DNA of 64,000 nucleotides from the IMG/VR virus record IMGVR_UViG_3300043411_000942, positions 124,001 to 188,000 of that record; one strand, written 5' to 3'. Numbering within the stretch: position 1 is the stretch's first letter; each line of letters opens with the position of its first letter. Position numbers and translations under genes: made by a program. Shown piece after piece: positions 10,816-16,975 of this stretch. The notes below the pieces were generated by a model, which was given only the letters and a program-made list of their open reading frames with translations, was not told the DNA's origin and did not search any database. The DNA comes from a virus.

Positions 10816-12703
10816 GATGAACAAAGAAAATCTAGGCCCAGCAGAGCGCATTCTGCAAACGTTGCTTCAGTACACGGATCATGCTGTCCACAACCGACCA
10901 GGGTACACCGTAAAGGACACCTCTGTTGTCGGAGTGAAGTGGCAACCTGTCACTCACAAGGTAGAGGGTGACGAGAAGGTAGTTTACACTCTCTCGAAGG
11001 TGGGCAAGAAGACTGTCCGTACGAGGTTGGGTGTCCTTCAGCCGGACAATCGAATCACGGGCCCTAGGGGGGCCTTGATTGGGGAGTACCGACCAGCCGG
11101 TCTGTTCCCTGAGGTCGTGACCTGGATGTACCGTCAGGTCACGGAGGTGTGGAAGCTGGATAACGAGTTCGCTGCCCGTTGGGCGAGCTACGCTTTCAAG
11201 CAAGAGCATCGAGACCTGAAGGTCATCCTGGCAGCCCTGATGCTTGTACAGTCCCGTAAGGGAGATCCTGTTCTGGATCAAGGCAAGGTAGCCTTCTACG
11301 ATGAAGACTTCCGAGACGTTGGAGAGGCCATGTTGCTGCTCCATGACAAGGACAACAAGGCTGGGTTGAACCCCAAGCTACTTCTTCGTGTCCAGGAGAT
11401 TCTGACCCTTCCTGGAGTGGTTGCAATCAACCGAGAGCTTGGTTTCTCTCGATCCCTACGTAACCCGGCTCTGGGTCGTTGGCCCAAGGCTGTAACTAAG
11501 TGGCTTCGGTTCCGAGAGGAAAACCCCAAGCTGCTTGCAGGACTCGTTAAGGCTGGATTCAAGTCCACCGTAATGGAGTTGGCACGTAAGGTAGGGTACA
11601 AGCCGGAGTCTTCAAAGTTCTTTGAGGCTCTTCGGTGGAAGCAGGGACAAGCCAAGGACGGTCACCGTTCAATTGCCATTGGGCAAGCGGTAACCGCTGC
11701 GGAATCCTGGAATGGTCTGACTGAAGAGCAAGTCTGTCAAAAGATTGCGTCTACTCGACCTAACTGGAAGCGGATCGTAGGTCTTCTTCCCAAGGAGGTT
11801 GGAGTTACCCGAGCAATCGTGGCTGTAGCGATTGAGTCTGGGTCGTTTAGCGACAAGGACTTGATCATTGCAACCCCGACGCTGGAGGAGCTTGGTCTCC
11901 TGGATGTTCAGGACATTCGAGCCCGCTGGGTTCGAGCCACGAAAGAGGCGGATGACATGCGTGCGGCGAACATTGCCACACGAGTCAAGAGCCAAGCGAC
12001 CAAGGAAGTTCTACAGGATGCTGCGGACACAGCAATCAAGAAGGTTGTAGAGCAGGTCATGAAGGGGATTCGAATCTACTTCATGGTTGACATCTCGGGA
12101 TCGATGGAAGGCGCTATTGAGTCCGCAAAGGGCTACATCGGTAAGTTCCTTCAGGCGTTCCCGAAAGACAAGGTCCATGTGAGCGTGTTCAATACTTCTG
12201 GGCGAGAAGTCCAAATCCCACACGCGTCAGCGGCTGGGGTGGAGAATGCGTTCAAGGGCATTAGGGCAGGAGGCGGTACGGACTATGGGGCTGGCGTTCG
12301 AGCCCTCATGAAGTTCAAGCCTCAGGCTGACGAGGATGTCATCTTCTTCTTCGTGGGAGATGAAGAGGCGAGTGAGTTTTCGACTGCGGTTAGAGATTCT
12401 GGCCTTTCTCCAGTTGCTTTCGGATTTGTAAAGGTTCGAGCAACTACTGGAGCTGGGGCTTGGAGAGCTACACAGTACGAAACTTCGGCAGTACGAGACA
12501 CTGCAACGAACTTGGGAGTTCCTTGCTTCATGGTGGACGCAAATACGTTTGACGACCCCTACGCAATTCCACGTACGATGCGGAATCTCATCTCAGCTAC
12601 CCCTGTTGGTGTAGCTCGTAAGCAGACCGAGACCACGCGAGTGGGTCTTGTGGACCTGATTCTAAAGACCGATATCATGCAGAAGCCGACTTGGGCTTCG
12701 TGA
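10816..12703 (+). CDS. Ro60/TROVE-like protein with C-terminal vWA domain
   Basis: 628 aa from ATG 10816; an upstream in-frame ATG at 10721 would cover strong hairpins. The N-terminal two thirds is helical and lysine/arginine-rich, in the position of the HEAT-like RNA-binding TROVE ring. The C-terminal vWA domain carries MIDAS 'FMVDISGSMEG' (about residue 420) and 'RAGGGTDYGAG' plus 'FFVGDEEASE', corresponding to DxSxS, GGTD and the later acidic residue of Ro60. Ro60 scaffolds Y RNA and binds misfolded RNA. It heads a cassette with L12-like, JAB, Ubl and E1-like genes. The TROVE part is inferred from layout. Confidence 0.7.
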
Positions 12704-12717
12704 AAGAGTAGAGCGCC

Positions 12718-13680
12718 ATGGGGTGGAGAGACTTGCTTCCAGAAAAAGAGGAGACTGTAATCTTCCCTTGGGTTGGAGGTAGGTCTCTTCGCTCCGGCTC
12801 TCGTACTTGGAAAATTCAAGGTGCGCTACCAGACGAGCATGGATGGTATGCGTTTCGGATAGTGGGGCGTAATGCCACTCTAGGTGGACCTAGTGGTCCC
12901 GTAGTTGGGATGCTCGATCCTTACAAGGATGTTGGTTACCTAGTAGGGGACCACTTTGTATCTGACTCAATCCAGGCTCAGAGTACTACTCAGGCGTTGC
13001 GCCAGATGAGCCCAGTGGGGCTAGTTGAGCCAGGACTAGATCGGTTCGCTAGGGTCTCCGTAGGGCGAGCGTTTGAGGGCGGCCCTCTTATCTACATGGG
13101 ACTAGAGTTCCCTTTGGGCCCGGAGGAGCAAGTCCTTCAAATGTTCCTAGACCAAGCTCCAACCGTTCGTGAAGTCAAAGGAGTTACTCCAGCGCTCGAA
13201 GCTGCCTTTCAAGTGGAAACTTGGCAACGTCTGGAAACAGAGAGGTTGCGAGTAGAAGCAAACGAGCGTCGCCGATTGGCGGAGGAGCAACGACGTAAGG
13301 AAGAGCAACGTCAACAGATTTTGAACCAGCTTGGGGACGCAGTTGGTCGCCGTCAAATGGCTCAACTCGACTTTGCAGAAGCTGCAAAAGCCTCCCTTGC
13401 GGTAGGGGGCGCTACTTACCTAGACCATCGTAGAGCCGTCACGAGAGGTGAGATGGTTGTAAGGTTCCGGTACATGGACCGTAGGTTCGAATGTGTGTGC
13501 GACGAGAAGACACTACAGATCATTGACTCTGGAGTGTGCCTTACTGCACACAATGATGATGATGGGTTTGACGAGGGAGTGAAAGGAGACCGTTTCTTTA
13601 CTCTTGAGTCCCTGCCATCCGTGTTGAAGGAAGCTCAGGATCTTGGCCGTCTTGTGGTGTATAGGCACGTAGATGGCTAA
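12718..13680 (+). CDS. coiled-coil protein of the Ubl cassette
   Basis: 320 aa. The N-terminal region (to about 150) is beta-rich; residues about 165-205 form a charged coiled coil (ETERLRVEANERRRLAEEQR). The C-terminal part has 'EMVVRFRYMDRRFECVCDEKTLQIIDSGVCL' and an acidic NDDDGFDEG loop. No family recognised. It starts 15 nt after the Ro60-like gene and its stop overlaps the next start by 8 nt, so it belongs to the same operon. It could be the missing E2-like or adaptor partner, but no E2 motif is visible. Confidence 0.8.
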   Translation: MGWRDLLPEKEETVIFPWVGGRSLRSGSRTWKIQGALPDEHGWYAFRIVGRNATLGGPSGPVVGMLDPYKDVGYLVGDHFVSDSIQAQSTTQALRQMSPVGLVEPGLDRFARVSVGRAFEGGPLIYMGLEFPLGPEEQVLQMFLDQAPTVREVKGVTPALEAAFQVETWQRLETERLRVEANERRRLAEEQRRKEEQRQQILNQLGDAVGRRQMAQLDFAEAAKASLAVGGATYLDHRRAVTRGEMVVRFRYMDRRFECVCDEKTLQIIDSGVCLTAHNDDDGFDEGVKGDRFFTLESLPSVLKEAQDLGRLVVYRHVDG

Positions 13681-14239
13681 CGAAAAAGACCGCTCAGTTT
13701 GGGTTTTCAGGCTGAGTAACGATCCAGTAGGTGTGCGCCCCATCGAGGATGAAGTGCGCCCCATCGAGGATGAAGTCGCGGACGCACTGCAACGACAGGA
13801 CAAAGCCCTCATGGCTAGCAGAGAAGAAGAGCACGTCTCAGCTGTCCCAATCTATGGGGCTCCACTCTACGTGATGCCCGCCAAGGTACCCGTAGGTACT
13901 GGATTTGCAGACCCAGCTTACGAAGAAGAAGTCAACATAAACGTCTCAGCCGTTTCAGCCTATGGCGGGGCTCCACCTTTAGATGATGATCATGACTACG
14001 AGTTTGACGTCTGCTTGGAAGACTACTCTCAAGCCACCCTTACAAAGGTGGTCCAAGTTGTACGTAGGGTGCTCCCCATGGACCTAGCGAAGGCTGTTAC
14101 TCTAGTAAAGAGCACTCCTGTGGTTTTAGCCTCTAAGGTTAGCATCTCAGATGCTTTGGAGCTTGAGTCAGAGTTCACTAAGGTTGGAGCGCAAGTACGA
14201 GTTGTAAACTCGTACACCAAAGAGGTGGTACGAGCATGA
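13673..14239 (+). CDS. protein with ribosomal L7/L12 C-terminal domain
   Basis: 188 aa. The last ~75 residues, from 'YEFDVCLEDYSQATLTKVVQ' through 'DLAKAVTLVKSTPVVL' and 'GAQVRVVNSY', follow the L7/L12 C-terminal domain pattern (EFDV..., LKEAKDLVExxP, L...AGAxVEV). That domain recruits translational GTPases to the ribosome. The N-terminal ~100 residues are acidic and low complexity, with an exact duplication of 7 residues (VRPIEDE). Translationally coupled at both ends. Likely an L12 mimic or an adaptor to ribosomes (inference). Confidence 0.75.
   Translation: MANEKDRSVWVFRLSNDPVGVRPIEDEVRPIEDEVADALQRQDKALMASREEEHVSAVPIYGAPLYVMPAKVPVGTGFADPAYEEEVNINVSAVSAYGGAPPLDDDHDYEFDVCLEDYSQATLTKVVQVVRRVLPMDLAKAVTLVKSTPVVLASKVSISDALELESEFTKVGAQVRVVNSYTKEVVRA
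13733..13774 (+). repeat. 21-bp perfect tandem duplication
   Basis: Two identical adjacent 21-nt units encoding VRPIEDE twice, in frame, in the disordered N-terminal part of the L12-like protein; looks recent. Confidence 0.9.
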
Positions 14240-14703
14240 GCATAGAAACAGGAGTGGTGGTAAACCTTCAAGGGGAGCCGATTCACTGGCACCTCCCACC
14301 AGGACGGTCTGCTGGGTACCTACCGGATAGTAGAGACCTTTGGGATGTGTTCTGGGAGAATCGTGACAACCTACTCGGGTTTGCACACAGCCACCCAGGG
14401 GCAGGCTACCCTCACCCTTCTCACGAAGATCTTACAACCTTCTCAGCGGTAGAAGCTGGCTTGGGTCGAAGGTTGCTTTGGTGGGTTATGAGTAAGACCT
14501 CGGTAGTGGTGTATAGCTGGGTCGGTCCTGGTTTGTACGACTACCGAGTGAACTCTGACCGAGAGGCTAAGTATGAGAGTGGGGACAGCTCAAGCCAACA
14601 GGAACTAAGTTGGGTTGCGAGGTTGTACTCTCTATCTTACCTAAACAATGAGGGTAGTCCAGAGATGGACTACATGAACGTAGACCTTGGCGGAGATAGA
14701 TAA
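14236..14703 (+). CDS. JAB/JAMM (MPN) metallopeptidase
   Basis: 155 aa; start overlaps the upstream stop (ATGA). It contains the JAMM signature 'GFAHSHPGAGYPHPSHED': H51, H53, S62 and D65, the zinc ligands and serine of JAMM deubiquitinases, with E14 a candidate catalytic glutamate. Such enzymes trim or remove ubiquitin-like proteins. Next to a Ubl gene it probably exposes the Ubl C-terminal glycine or reverses conjugation (inference). Confidence 0.85.
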   Translation: MSIETGVVVNLQGEPIHWHLPPGRSAGYLPDSRDLWDVFWENRDNLLGFAHSHPGAGYPHPSHEDLTTFSAVEAGLGRRLLWWVMSKTSVVVYSWVGPGLYDYRVNSDREAKYESGDSSSQQELSWVARLYSLSYLNNEGSPEMDYMNVDLGGDR

Positions 14704-14715
14704 GGGGAATTCAAA

Positions 14716-14973
14716 ATGGAAGCAAATGAAGCACGAGTGAATGTTACTTACGCAGGTGCAAACGGAGACCTGCCCGACCCTGTATCGTTTGATGCAGCGG
14801 ACGGAGACATCAAGCAGTGGGTCACTGAGTCTGTAAGGACCGGGGGAATCCCAGGGATTCCTGCCACGGCAACGGCCAACTTCGCAGACTTTGTGGTGGA
14901 CCGGTTCACGGCGAACGAAGCAAGGCCTTACAATGCAATTTTCTTGAGGCCGAAAACCCCATTTGGAGTCTAG
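14716..14973 (+). CDS. ubiquitin-like beta-grasp protein
   Basis: 85 aa with a clear Shine-Dalgarno (AAGGGGAATTC). It begins as a beta hairpin ('ARVNVTYAGANGDLPDPVSF') and ends 'YNAIFLRPKTPFGV', a C-terminus like small prokaryotic Ubls where a single residue follows the terminal glycine. Size, order of strands and location between JAB and E1 genes support a Ubl; PRTRC protein C and phage Ubls are the nearest concepts. Removing the last Val would expose Gly. Confidence 0.7.
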   Translation: MEANEARVNVTYAGANGDLPDPVSFDAADGDIKQWVTESVRTGGIPGIPATATANFADFVVDRFTANEARPYNAIFLRPKTPFGV

Positions 14974-14996
14974 TTCTAGTTGACACTCAAGCGGCT

Positions 14997-15218
14997 TTGG
15001 TGAGGCCATTCTTACCAGAGTGTTTTCTCTATAAGATTCAACATGTTAGCCACATTAAGCCCAACCCTTGGTGGCAGCGCTCCCGAAAGCTAACCCCTGA
15101 AGCTGTTCGGGTTATCCGGGCTAGCGGAGCGTCACTCTCGAAGTTGGCTAAAACCTACTCTGTCTCCCGTAGGGTGGTCCAACTGGTCCGTGCTGGGGAG
15201 ACTTACCAAGACGTGTAA
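14997..15218 (+). CDS. small HTH protein
   Basis: 73 aa from TTG 14997 (GTG 15000 is an alternative); no good Shine-Dalgarno. The C-terminal half 'KLTPEAVRVIRASGASLSKL' and 'YSVSRRVVQLVRAGETY' is a resolvase-type helix-turn-helix like those at the C-termini of phage HNH proteins. It may be a regulator of the cassette or a remnant of a homing gene. Confidence 0.5.
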   Translation: MVRPFLPECFLYKIQHVSHIKPNPWWQRSRKLTPEAVRVIRASGASLSKLAKTYSVSRRVVQLVRAGETYQDV

Positions 15219-15223
15219 AAACT

Positions 15224-15251
15224 CGTTAAAGGTTCCCGTCCTTGGTACGTA
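15224..15251 (+). promoter_or_regulatory. phage promoter-like motif inside the Ubl cassette
   Basis: CGTTAA 15224-15229, 16 nt, TACGTA 15246-15251, 21 nt before the 15273 ATG, which has its own GGTAAGG. It would start a separate transcript for the E1-like gene. Confidence 0.55.
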
Positions 15252-15272
15252 AGGTTAGGTAAGGTAGCCAAC

Positions 15273-15506
15273 ATGAACTTCCAGACCCTTACGACTCGAT
15301 TGAAGACAATCGGGGAGATTGTGGAGCCAGCCAACGGACCTAAGGTAGGGGATTCTTACCTAGACCTTCACACTTCCTCAGAGGGAGTAATCTGGAAGGT
15401 CATGGAGGTTGACTGGGTTCACGACACCGTCAAGCTGAAAGGCTTGAAAGGCCATGTTGAGTGGGCTGGGTACTACTCAGTTCTCAACTTGATGAGAAAA
15501 CTCTGA
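15273..15506 (+). CDS. hypothetical small beta protein (77 aa)
   Basis: ATG 15273, after a promoter-like motif. 'GDSYLDLHTSSEGVIWKVME' and 'DTVKLKGLKGHVEWAGYYSV' suggest a small SH3-like barrel. Its stop overlaps the E1-like start (TGATG), implying coupled expression. Confidence 0.7.
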   Translation: MNFQTLTTRLKTIGEIVEPANGPKVGDSYLDLHTSSEGVIWKVMEVDWVHDTVKLKGLKGHVEWAGYYSVLNLMRKL

Positions 15507-16081
15507 TGAAAAACATAGTAGTAGTGGGAGTAGGGGCTCTTGGTTCACACCTTGTCCCTCTACTCCGTAACCTGGACGCAACTGTAAAGGTTGTGGACTT
15601 TGACCGAGTAGAGACAAAGAACACGATGTCTCAGTTCCACGCAAAGTCTTCTGTCGGTAAGTCGAAGGTTCAAGCCCTTCAAGCTACCATGCAGTTCTTG
15701 TGGGGCGTAAAGCTGCAAGTCATACCCCACAAGCTTACTACAGACAACCAAGAGCAGCTCCTTGGAGGAGCAGACCTTCTTGTCGACTGCCTAGACAACG
15801 GCCCTTCCAGGAGACTTGTACAGGACTATGCGAAGCGTAAAGGTGTCCCATGCCTACATGGGGCGTTAGCAGCGGATGGTTCGTTTGGTAGGGTAATCTG
15901 GACAGAGTCCTTTACCATCGATGAGGCTCCTGGAGTTGGTACTCCAACCTGTGAGAACGGAGAGCACCTAGCGTTCATCTCCATCGTGGCCTCCTATCTA
16001 GCTCAGGTTACCAGTGCTTTTCTTGCTACTGGTACCAAGTTGGGGTATAGTGTTCATGCAGGTGGTGCGGTTAGGACGTAG
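15506..16081 (+). CDS. E1/ThiF-like ubiquitin-activating enzyme
   Basis: 191 aa. Rossmann ATP site 'VVGVGALGSHLVPLLRNL', then 'VVDFDRVETKNTMSQF' and 'VGKSKVQAL' (the ThiF/E1 D-x-D-xV-E-x-x-N and GxxK pattern), 'DLLVDCLDNGPSRR', and a later 'PTCENGEH' cysteine. This is the adenylation core of E1/MoeB/ThiF enzymes, which activate the C-terminal Gly of Ubl proteins. Short: no extra UBA or E2-binding domain. Pairs functionally with the 14716 Ubl and the 14236 JAB gene. Confidence 0.88.
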   Translation: MKNIVVVGVGALGSHLVPLLRNLDATVKVVDFDRVETKNTMSQFHAKSSVGKSKVQALQATMQFLWGVKLQVIPHKLTTDNQEQLLGGADLLVDCLDNGPSRRLVQDYAKRKGVPCLHGALAADGSFGRVIWTESFTIDEAPGVGTPTCENGEHLAFISIVASYLAQVTSAFLATGTKLGYSVHAGGAVRT

Positions 16082-16149
16082 GAAAAATCGCACGCTTAGC
16101 AAAAGAAAATCTTGCCCGCCCTCTACTCCTGGTGTAGAGGTACTTAACA

Positions 16150-16207
16150 GGAAGAGGTGACCTAATCGGTAGGTACCTCAGGCTGGTTCGAATCCACCCT
16201 CTTCCCC
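16150..16207 (+). other. tRNA-like element lacking an anticodon arm
   Basis: Perfect acceptor GGAAGAG/CTCTTCC, D-arm ACCT/AGGT and a T-arm with TTCGAAT, but only 5-6 nt lie between D- and T-arms. A second helix GAGGTAC/GTACCTC competes around the D-arm, and a 7-bp hairpin CCTCTAC-TCCTGGT-GTAGAGG lies just upstream (about 16120-16140). A decayed tRNA or a tRNA-like regulatory RNA. Confidence 0.45.
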
Positions 16208-16222
16208 TGCTTCTGTCTACTA

Positions 16223-16327
16223 CCTGAATCTTACAAGCAATGTTGGTTCGAATCCAACTGCCCCTTCGGGGGTATGGCGGAATGGAAAACGCAATCACCC
16301 GATAAGTGATCAATACCCAGATTCAGG
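16223..16327 (+). tRNA. circularly permuted tRNA-like gene
   Basis: The order is outer helix strand CCTGAATCT (16223-16231), TACAAG, T-arm GTTGG-TTCGAAT-CCAAC, acceptor 3' strand TGCCCCT (16259-16265), a 2-nt spacer, acceptor 5' strand GGGGGTA (16268-16274), D-arm GCG/CGC, anticodon-like arm ATCAC-CCGATAA-GTGAT, then outer strand AGATTCAGG (16319-16327). All acceptor bases pair but in permuted order. The loop reads GAT with C33. Function would need circularisation and cutting at the 2-nt junction. Confidence 0.55.
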
Positions 16328-16348: not shown

Positions 16349-16476
16349 GCCGCATATGACTCCAGGTGGGGTCACTCCCGTTTAAAGGAATAAACCGACA
16401 CTCCGCTCTCAATCCTCGCAAGAGGGTTAACTTGAAGTGTCTACAAGAATGGTTGGTTCGAGTCCAACATGCGGCA
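16349..16476 (+). tRNA. tRNA-like gene with inserted hairpin
   Basis: Perfect acceptor GCCGCAT/ATGCGGC, D-arm GACT/GGTC and T-arm GTTGG-TTCGAGT-CCAAC, but about 80 nt between D- and T-arms. This holds GTTTA/TAAAC and a hairpin closed by GACACT/AGTGTC (16397-16441) with an inner CCTC-GCAA-GAGG, followed by TACAAG. The anticodon is not secure. The insertion flanks (ACC before, TACAAG after) match other elements nearby. Confidence 0.5.
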
Positions 16477-16493
16477 CTAGAGACGGTTACTAC

Positions 16494-16585
16494 GAGGTGT
16501 TTACAAGCATAGTCCAATGGTAGGACATCAGCCCTGATAGCTGACTGTATAGGTTCAATTCCTATTGCAATCAATCCAACACCTC
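16494..16585 (+). tRNA. tRNA-like gene flanked by an outer helix
   Basis: Outer helix GAGGTGTT (16494-16501)/AACACCTC (16578-16585) encloses TACAAG, D-arm GTCC/GGAC, anticodon-like arm TCAGC-CCTGATA-GCTGA, T-arm ATAGG-TTCAATT-CCTAT and a poor acceptor (only GCA/TGC pair). The anticodon could read TGA, or GAT if shifted. Confidence 0.5.
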
Positions 16586-16705
16586 AACTCAATCGTCTCT
16601 TATATCTATGTTACCATTCAAGATTACCTCTATCTTGCTCTAGGTCGTGTGGTGCAAAGTTAGGAGCAGTGCAGAAAAACCGTATCGTTGCTACTTAGTT
16701 ACTTA
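16586..16705. other. spacer, nothing assigned
   Basis: 120 nt without a clear tRNA, ORF or strong terminator. Confidence 0.3.
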
Positions 16706-16836
16706 GCCGGACATAGAGGGTGGGTCCCCTCATTCGTAATGAAGCACGAAAAGCACCAGCATCTCTTCTCGCCCTCTTTACCGAGGGTTCTCTGAGATGC
16801 TTACAAGAAATCTTGGTTCGAGTCCAAGGTCCGGCG
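16706..16836 (+). tRNA. tRNA-like gene with 44-nt hairpin insertion
   Basis: Acceptor GCCGGAC/GTCCGGC and T-arm CTTGG-TTCGAGT-CCAAG are intact. A hairpin AGCATCTC/GAGATGCT (16758-16801) with inner CCCTC-TTTACC-GAGGG lies in the variable region, preceded by ACC and followed by TACAAG. The anticodon arm may be CA-TTCGTAA-TG (reads CGT, Thr). Confidence 0.5.
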
Positions 16837-16853
16837 CTAGAGCGATCACTCTG

Positions 16854-16952
16854 GGATGTTTACACGCTAAAATTGCTCAACTGGTAGAGCAGCCGCCTCA
16901 TAAGCAGCATGTTGCTGGTTCAAGTCCAGCTTTCAGCATCAAAACAACATCC
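16854..16952 (+). other. outer helix around tRNA(CAT)
   Basis: GGATGTT (16854-16860) pairs with AACATCC (16946-16952), enclosing a complete tRNA with TACAC before it and TCAAAAC after it; the same plan as the 16494 element. Confidence 0.55.
16866..16938 (+). tRNA. tRNA with CAT anticodon
   Basis: Acceptor GCTAAAA/TTTCAGC (one A-C mismatch), D-arm GCTC/GAGC, anticodon loop CTCATAA, T-arm GCTGG-TTCAAGT-CCAGC. Confidence 0.8.
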
Positions 16953-16975
16953 AATCTCGATCGCTCTTACTACTT

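Follow-up and report, generated by a model that had tools for sequence, protein, structure and literature searches.

The stretch of DNA analysed here, called the window throughout, comprises 64,000 nucleotides and corresponds to positions 124001-188000 in a virus record of 232,937 bp (IMG/VR record IMGVR_UViG_3300043411_000942). It carries a cassette of genes for a Ro60-like protein, a coiled-coil protein that we call CC, a JAB protease, a ubiquitin-like modifier (Ubl) and an E1/ThiF-type enzyme, followed by a row of small genes for structured RNAs. The original prediction, made from the letters of the window alone, had named six genes; all of them are present, in the proposed order and on the plus strand. 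The first gene begins at the ATG in position 10817 and not at 10816; the E1 gene is best read from the ATG in position 15506 and not from the GTG in position 15461. The stretch of 10816-16081 given in the prediction ended too early, as the system's RNA genes are found further on, at 16349-16967. Neither the RNA family, nor the invariant cysteine of CC, nor the bacterial chromosomal versions, nor the Ubl tails of 0-61 residues were part of it. The features of the locus are as follows.

10817..12703, + strand: Ro60-like protein, 628 aa (VWA_2, 2.7e-9); in 72/74 loci
12718..13680, + strand: CC protein, 320 aa (AlphaFold2 predicted local distance difference test, pLDDT, 90.9); in 72/74 loci, no family match
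13673..14239, + strand: L7/L12 C-terminal-domain protein (PF00542, 1.9e-9)
14236..14703, + strand: JAB/JAMM metalloprotease (Prok-JAB, 2e-5)
14716..14973, + strand: Ubl modifier, 85 aa, precursor ending RPKTPFG-V (AlphaFold2 beta-grasp); no family match
15506..16081, + strand: E1/ThiF-type adenylation core, 191 aa (ThiF, 2.2e-24)
16136..16266, + strand: possible degenerate type A RNA, uncertain (model R1, 26.9 bits, E 3.5e-4)
16349..16476, + strand: type A RNA no. 1 (R1, 86.6 bits, E 2.3e-20; fold z -3.9)
16479..16600, + strand: type B RNA no. 1 (P:P' and S:S' helices, TACAAGC, CTC; fold z -2.5)
16706..16836, + strand: type A RNA no. 2 (R1, 77.5 bits, E 6.4e-18; fold z -5.6)
16839..16967, + strand: type B RNA no. 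2 (its core is the ARAGORN tRNA-Met 16866-16938)

We compared the window with 73 de-replicated loci, 74 in all, collected by IMG/VR scans that used the Ro60-like protein, CC, Ubl and E1 as queries, by one scan of GTDB genome contigs and by a search of named phages. Iterated profiles recover the Ro60-like protein in 72 of them, CC in 72, Ubl in 71, and E1 and JAB in 66 each; the absences are partly due to contig ends. The genes follow the order Ro60-CC-(JAB)-Ubl-E1, all on one strand, with the exception of a few bacterial loci in which JAB is missing or comes after Ubl (L148). Insertions between them are allowed, be they tRNAs, HNH endonuclease genes or other genes. These five genes form the sole strongly conserved block, and no other gene family comes near their conservation. 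The expectation that the genes are conserved together across phages is thus borne out, with the five-gene order kept in 66-72 of the 74 loci, for all but the L7/L12-domain gene.

The latter is absent from all loci other than the window and has no relative among the viral contigs. We read it as an insertion specific to the window phage and not as a member of the conserved cassette. L7/L12-type ribosomal protein genes are known from phages, and the L12-domain gene of the window resembles them; it does not belong to the conserved system and is found in this genome only. Because of its absence from every other locus, the proposed part of an L12-like protein or of the ribosome finds no support, and we discarded L12 as a partner of the system.

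The cassette occurs on IMG/VR contigs of up to 619 kb, and Rctr197k is the only named phage that carries it. The GTDB scan placed it on 12 contigs of metagenome-assembled genomes, mostly Myxococcota. Among 379 sampled Myxococcota genomes, seven make up a divergent clade in which Ro60, CC, JAB, Ubl and E1 genes are recognisable in the same order, some of the loci being incomplete at contig ends; one of these cassettes lies on a 3.2-Mb contig. Since it is found in phage contigs and in Myxococcota chromosomes, the cassette is at home both in giant phages and on the chromosomes of bacteria. In phages, and also in several of the bacterial loci, it is flanked by tRNA arrays, and an RtcB RNA ligase family adjoins it in five loci (e.g. 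L111:1430-2842).

The RNA genes of the window are arranged as A-B-A-B. Type A RNAs consist of a full tRNA frame with a module of 60-70 nt in the variable region. Their layout comprises a 7-bp acceptor stem, D arm, anticodon arm, helix S, a CTC(G) loop, a hairpin, S', the motif TACA[AC]GC and the T arm, so that the distance from acceptor to T arm is about 105-115 nt, compared with 50 in tRNAs. An unfitted MAFFT alignment of 17 type A RNAs contains two-sided changes in 28 of the 34 pairs, with a covariation of 0.637 versus 0.223 for shuffled controls; 83% of the alignment cells pair, compared with 60% after shuffling and at most 50% when slid. T-arms with a preceding TACA[AC]G number 115, a sevenfold excess over the 17 expected by chance, a few of them being ordinary valine anticodon loops.

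In type B RNAs the type A module is permuted: P, a loop, S, TACA[AC]GC, a tRNA core without acceptor stem, S', CTC(G) and P' follow one another. All 26 cases that we counted lie on the coding strand, the opposite strand having none, and in 17 of the 26 the CTC is located 2 nt past S'. The P:P' helix, which was not a search criterion, averages 9.3 bp versus 5.5 with the partners swapped. In the window, the Rfam tRNA match to type B no. 1 (16507-16568) covers only positions 5-66 of the 71 in the model, leaving out the acceptor stem. Over-long Rfam tRNA matches also lie directly upstream of the Ro60 gene in bacterial loci.

The bacterial Y RNA YrlA has a tRNA-like core that lacks the acceptor stem; a long terminal stem closes it. 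Judged from the predicted helices, type B has the architecture of YrlA, whose tRNA-like domain has been described (PMC7790460). A search of Rfam with these RNAs returned solely tRNA above the cut-offs; whether Rfam has a YrlA model was not checked. For type A, a complete tRNA frame with a module in its variable region, we know of no described counterpart. We also considered tRNAs with group I introns as an identity for type A and rejected it, the insert being far too short and differently structured.

A covariance model of the type A RNA, named R1, gives 103 copies at E<=1e-8. It matches 19 of 20 phage records, in which 52 of 69 copies fall close to the cassette, in regions that make up 4.4% of the sequence; the copies are clustered, and the binomial value for their location is therefore not used as a probability. 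In the Myxococcota sample R1 matches eight of the 379 genomes (one more with looser filters). All eight are CC-positive, several of them having been known as such beforehand, and none of the 362 CC-negative genomes, which were not selected, has a match. Type A clusters remote from the cassette are seen as well (L155, at G004:92000-106000, L156 and L157), embedded in tRNA arrays; reading the stretches L155-L159 around remote clusters revealed tRNA arrays only and no second cassette. Type A RNAs are further present on two bacterial contigs (L198, G026:C256, and L199, G023:C34) with no cassette gene in the fetched stretch, where contig ends are near.

The Ro60-like protein is composed of a divergent, TROVE-like N-terminal part of about 400 residues and a C-terminal vWA domain with the metal ion-dependent adhesion site (MIDAS) DISGSM and the motif GGTD. 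The MIDAS residues D425, S427 and S429 are invariant. With hhalign, a broad profile (70 sequences, 69 used) aligns to Myxococcota TROVE proteins with an E-value of 0.0026 and a probability of 11%. The alignment is collinear, running from the helical region through the MIDAS, and it beats 60 of 60 column-permuted controls as well as the reversed control. This TROVE-like similarity is suggestive only. Members of the Ro60/Rsr family are also recognised by adjoining genes for Y-type RNAs with a tRNA-like part and a predicted protein-binding stem, and RNA genes of this predicted kind do adjoin the cassette. Weak collinear similarity and neighbouring Y-RNA-like genes together support the assignment of the first gene to a Ro60-like protein.

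Structure predictions for Ubl and CC used sequences of the window and of the fetched loci, leaving out the Rctr197k row. AlphaFold2 models Ubl from 69 natural sequences as a beta-beta-alpha-beta-beta fold with a pLDDT of 93.9. Foldseek matches in the PDB are weak, the best having an E-value of 0.09 and none falling below 0.05; they are mostly beta-grasp domains, among them the Ras-binding domain of PI3K, the UBL domains of FAF1 and UBLCP1, PB1 and RA. The model is thus a confident beta-grasp, as had been proposed for this protein.

The C-terminus of Ubl, ..RPK[TVS][PA]FG, is nearly invariant, and its glycine is kept in 76 of 77 aligned sequences. What follows the glycine is variable and unrelated between loci: no residue in 18 loci, one in 23, and up to 61. 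This tail pattern reads as that of a ubiquitin precursor. In JAB, residues E4, H51 and H53 (HxH), S62 and D65 are invariant in 71 of 71 sequences from both clades, so that the predicted active residues align without exception. Five loci, including one whose contig is truncated, have no JAB gene, and in all five Ubl ends exactly at the glycine. No JAB of the cassette family was found in the genome assemblies of these five loci, which are incomplete, and it is present in two control genomes. Fisher's test of JAB absence against a Ubl ending at the glycine gives 0.003 for the four intact loci and 0.0008 with the truncated fifth, values that are approximate because the JAB-less loci are related. 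Since Ubl ends at its glycine in every JAB-less genome and has variable tails elsewhere, JAB very probably matures Ubl, trimming it to the C-terminal glycine at the predicted cleavage site, as the original prediction had supposed. JAB may also reverse the conjugation.

The E1 of the cassette is a ThiF-family member, as had been anticipated, and its best match in the PDB is MoeB (8.7e-14), with Cys149 aligned to Cys187 of MoeB. The glycine loop (GxGxxG), D31, K54, D97 and C149 are invariant, the lysine, aspartate and cysteine being retained in both clades. For the active residues, then, the nucleotide loop, lysine, aspartate and cysteine are kept, and one MoeB arginine, discussed below, is lost.

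The CC model begins with a beta domain at the N-terminus, which is followed by a helix of 49 residues (158-206) and a C-terminal domain. The latter contains a helix, four strands, a loop bearing Cys274 and then further helices. Cys274 is the only invariant cysteine of CC, found in 79 of 79 sequences with the divergent clade included, within the motif D[AS]G[IV]CL. The active site of E2 enzymes bears the motif GxICL. Both the order of the elements in CC and the place of Cys274 fit the order of ubiquitin-conjugating domains, in which the catalytic cysteine comes after the fourth strand; position and motif thus recall an E2 active site. We put CC forward as a candidate E2 or adaptor, purely as a hypothesis. 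Within the CC gene, ARAGORN reports a tRNA-Ser (13068-13147) that has no Rfam support and is probably a false positive. One locus has a partial second copy of CC adjoining the intact one (L016:10854-11237).

The surroundings of the cassette are rich in RNA genes. ARAGORN lists 46 of them in the window, a transfer-messenger RNA (tmRNA) among them. Positions 1-30000, around the cassette, hold more than 40 tRNA genes and the tmRNA (tag ANDNAYATPALAAA), mixed with HNH endonuclease genes. Two cassettes of the divergent bacterial clade, L190 and L192, are flanked by 17 and 12 tRNA genes, respectively. Between Ubl and E1 the window has two small open reading frames, 14997-15218 (73 aa, a weak helix-turn-helix) and 15273-15506 (77 aa), for which no conserved counterparts were noticed. 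A second, unrelated vWA protein of about 780 aa lies near the cassette in eight loci (L093:3021-5333, minus strand).

The cassette has features of several known systems. With the rsr-yrlBA-rtcBA operons it shares a vWA Ro60-like protein, adjacent tRNA-like Y-type RNAs and an occasional RtcB; unlike the cassette, these operons as described contain no Ubl, JAB or E1 (PMC7790460). In contrast to Ro60/Rsr, the TROVE domain of the cassette protein is too divergent for Pfam. TROVE proteins are known in jumbo phages (PMC7824862) and in Borgs (PMC11208441). These proteins (Iyer et al. 2021) resemble ours in being Ro-type RNA-binding proteins of large, tRNA-rich phages or elements, but the jumbo-phage paper mentions neither JAB nor ThiF and none of the type A and B RNAs (PMC7824862). 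Operons of Ubl, JAB and E1 have been described (PMC1779556). The Bil or type 6 Ubl-E1-E2-JAB operons (Iyer et al. 2006, row 6d) likewise have a separate Ubl with a conserved C-terminal glycine, a JAB and an E1, and the possibly E2-like protein of the cassette would be one more shared feature; the cassette differs in having no recognisable E2 and in the Ro60-like protein and RNA genes as fixed members. Finally, JAB, small Ubl and ThiF genes also stand together in the PRTRC cassette. We rejected membership in PRTRC or Prok_Ub: a Prok_Ub search with Ubl gave no match, the E1 reaches 36 bits where PRTRC_ThiF requires 145, and ParB and the other PRTRC genes are missing. In our searches of open-access literature, in which few subscription papers and preprints were covered, we found no description of the union of Ro60 with Ubl, JAB and E1, nor of the type A and B RNAs, and this RNA family appears to be new. 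To our knowledge, no system uniting a Ro60-like RNA-binding protein with ubiquitin-like tagging has been reported.

With slightly better than even confidence, we propose that the cassette encodes a ribonucleoprotein of Ro60/Y-RNA-like type that has a ubiquitin-like conjugation pathway of its own. The cassette, the RNA family, their co-occurrence, the catalytic residues and the maturation pattern of Ubl are established by comparison of the loci; we infer RNA binding, conjugation, target and benefit. A Ro60-like ring, suggested by the architecture of the protein, would bind the helix-loop module common to type A and type B RNAs, and the tRNA-like bodies could tether, or act as decoys for, enzymes that bind or cut tRNAs, a role that has also been proposed for YrlA. 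Once trimmed to its C-terminal glycine by JAB, which might also undo the conjugation, Ubl would be activated by E1 and handed on, probably via Cys149 and then Cys274 of CC acting as E2 or adaptor, to a target. The likeliest targets would be the Ro60-like protein and CC themselves, or else host proteins bound to tRNA. Where a phage has a large tRNA array, tRNAs would in this way be protected, sorted or repaired against host anticodon nucleases and other defence directed at translation; protection, sorting or repair of tRNAs is indicated by RtcB in five loci and by the flanking tRNA arrays.

Several observations weigh against this proposal. Pfam TROVE (PF05731) does not match the Ro60-like protein, narrow TROVE profiles detect nothing in it, and the hhalign probability is low. 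In MoeB, Arg73 and Arg14 have known roles. The equivalent of Arg73 (NLxRQ) is serine, alanine or glycine in 64 of 64 aligned E1 rows and in six of six divergent ones, and the N-terminal helix that carries Arg14 is absent. Because both are missing, activation of Ubl by E1 is probable but not assured; the invariant R21 and R102 may substitute for the lost arginine. The original prediction had considered an E2 or adaptor at 12718, and Foldseek searches of the PDB and BFVD, a PDB profile search and Pfam gave no hit for CC, be it to an E2 or to any other family or fold. As for the RNAs, Rctr197k has the cassette and no R1 match, some copies lie far from the cassette within tRNA arrays (G004, G006 and G010), and R1 matches are only weak in the divergent bacterial clade.

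Other explanations have to be weighed against the same evidence. The cassette might be a bacterial anti-phage island, comparable to Bil, that giant phages captured for use against rivals or hosts. Its presence in phages and Myxococcota chromosomes alike fits, and E1/JAB/Ubl systems are tied to defence (PMC10097602). We nevertheless hold this to be unlikely: the cassette is near-universal in its phage group and always stands by tRNA genes, which suggests a core function in infection and not a variable defence gene. Somewhat less probable in our view is that Ubl is a sulfur carrier, thiocarboxylated in the manner of TtuB or ThiS for tRNA thiolation or another sulfur transfer; JAB would then mature the carrier, and the RNAs would be modified tRNA-like substrates. 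The kinship of the E1 to MoeB/ThiF, the JAB, Ubl and E1 sets of sulfur operons (PMC1779556) and the tRNA-rich surroundings would all suit such a role; it leaves the Ro60-like partner and the invariant cysteine of CC unexplained, and the loci show no conserved rhodanese, sulfurtransferase, cysteine desulfurase or thiouridylase.

We give the same low credence to a particle that modifies itself, Ubl being attached a single time to the Ro60-like protein or to CC, or stably complexed with it, as an assembly or maturation tag. Strict co-conservation does stop at the five genes, and lambda tail modules, with their part in phage tail assembly, contain Ubl and JAB pairs free of conjugation (PMC1779556). 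The cassette, though, adjoins tRNA and RNA genes and not recognisable structural genes in the loci that we read, and it exists in bacterial chromosomes too. It is also conceivable, if quite improbable, that Ubl, once activated by E1, becomes linked to the tRNA-like RNAs or that they guide its conjugation, an RNA-directed ubiquitin-like modification; such an attachment comes into question because a Ubl-adenylate resembles an aminoacyl-adenylate in its chemistry and the acceptor stem of type A is intact. Least probable of all, we consider, is that type A RNAs are tRNAs that contain small introns and are processed by a tRNA-splicing pathway, the cassette being tied to them only through a shared tRNA-rich hotspot. 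In favour of this, type A retains a perfect acceptor stem and a plausible anticodon arm with varied anticodons, and RtcB is present in five loci. However, type B bears the permuted module without an acceptor stem, so that a mature tRNA is impossible, the insert sits in the variable region with CTC and TACAAGC conserved, and in Myxococcota the RNA is confined to CC-positive genomes.

The role of Ro60 and Y RNAs in bacteria is poorly understood, and the ubiquitin-like systems of bacteria are known chiefly as defence islands. The fixed genetic link between Ro60 and Ubl, accompanied by a dedicated RNA family, would provide a testable entry to both, through the target of Ubl on the one hand and the contribution of the Y-type RNA on the other. 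If it were true that RNA directs the tagging of proteins, this would be a new principle of regulation.

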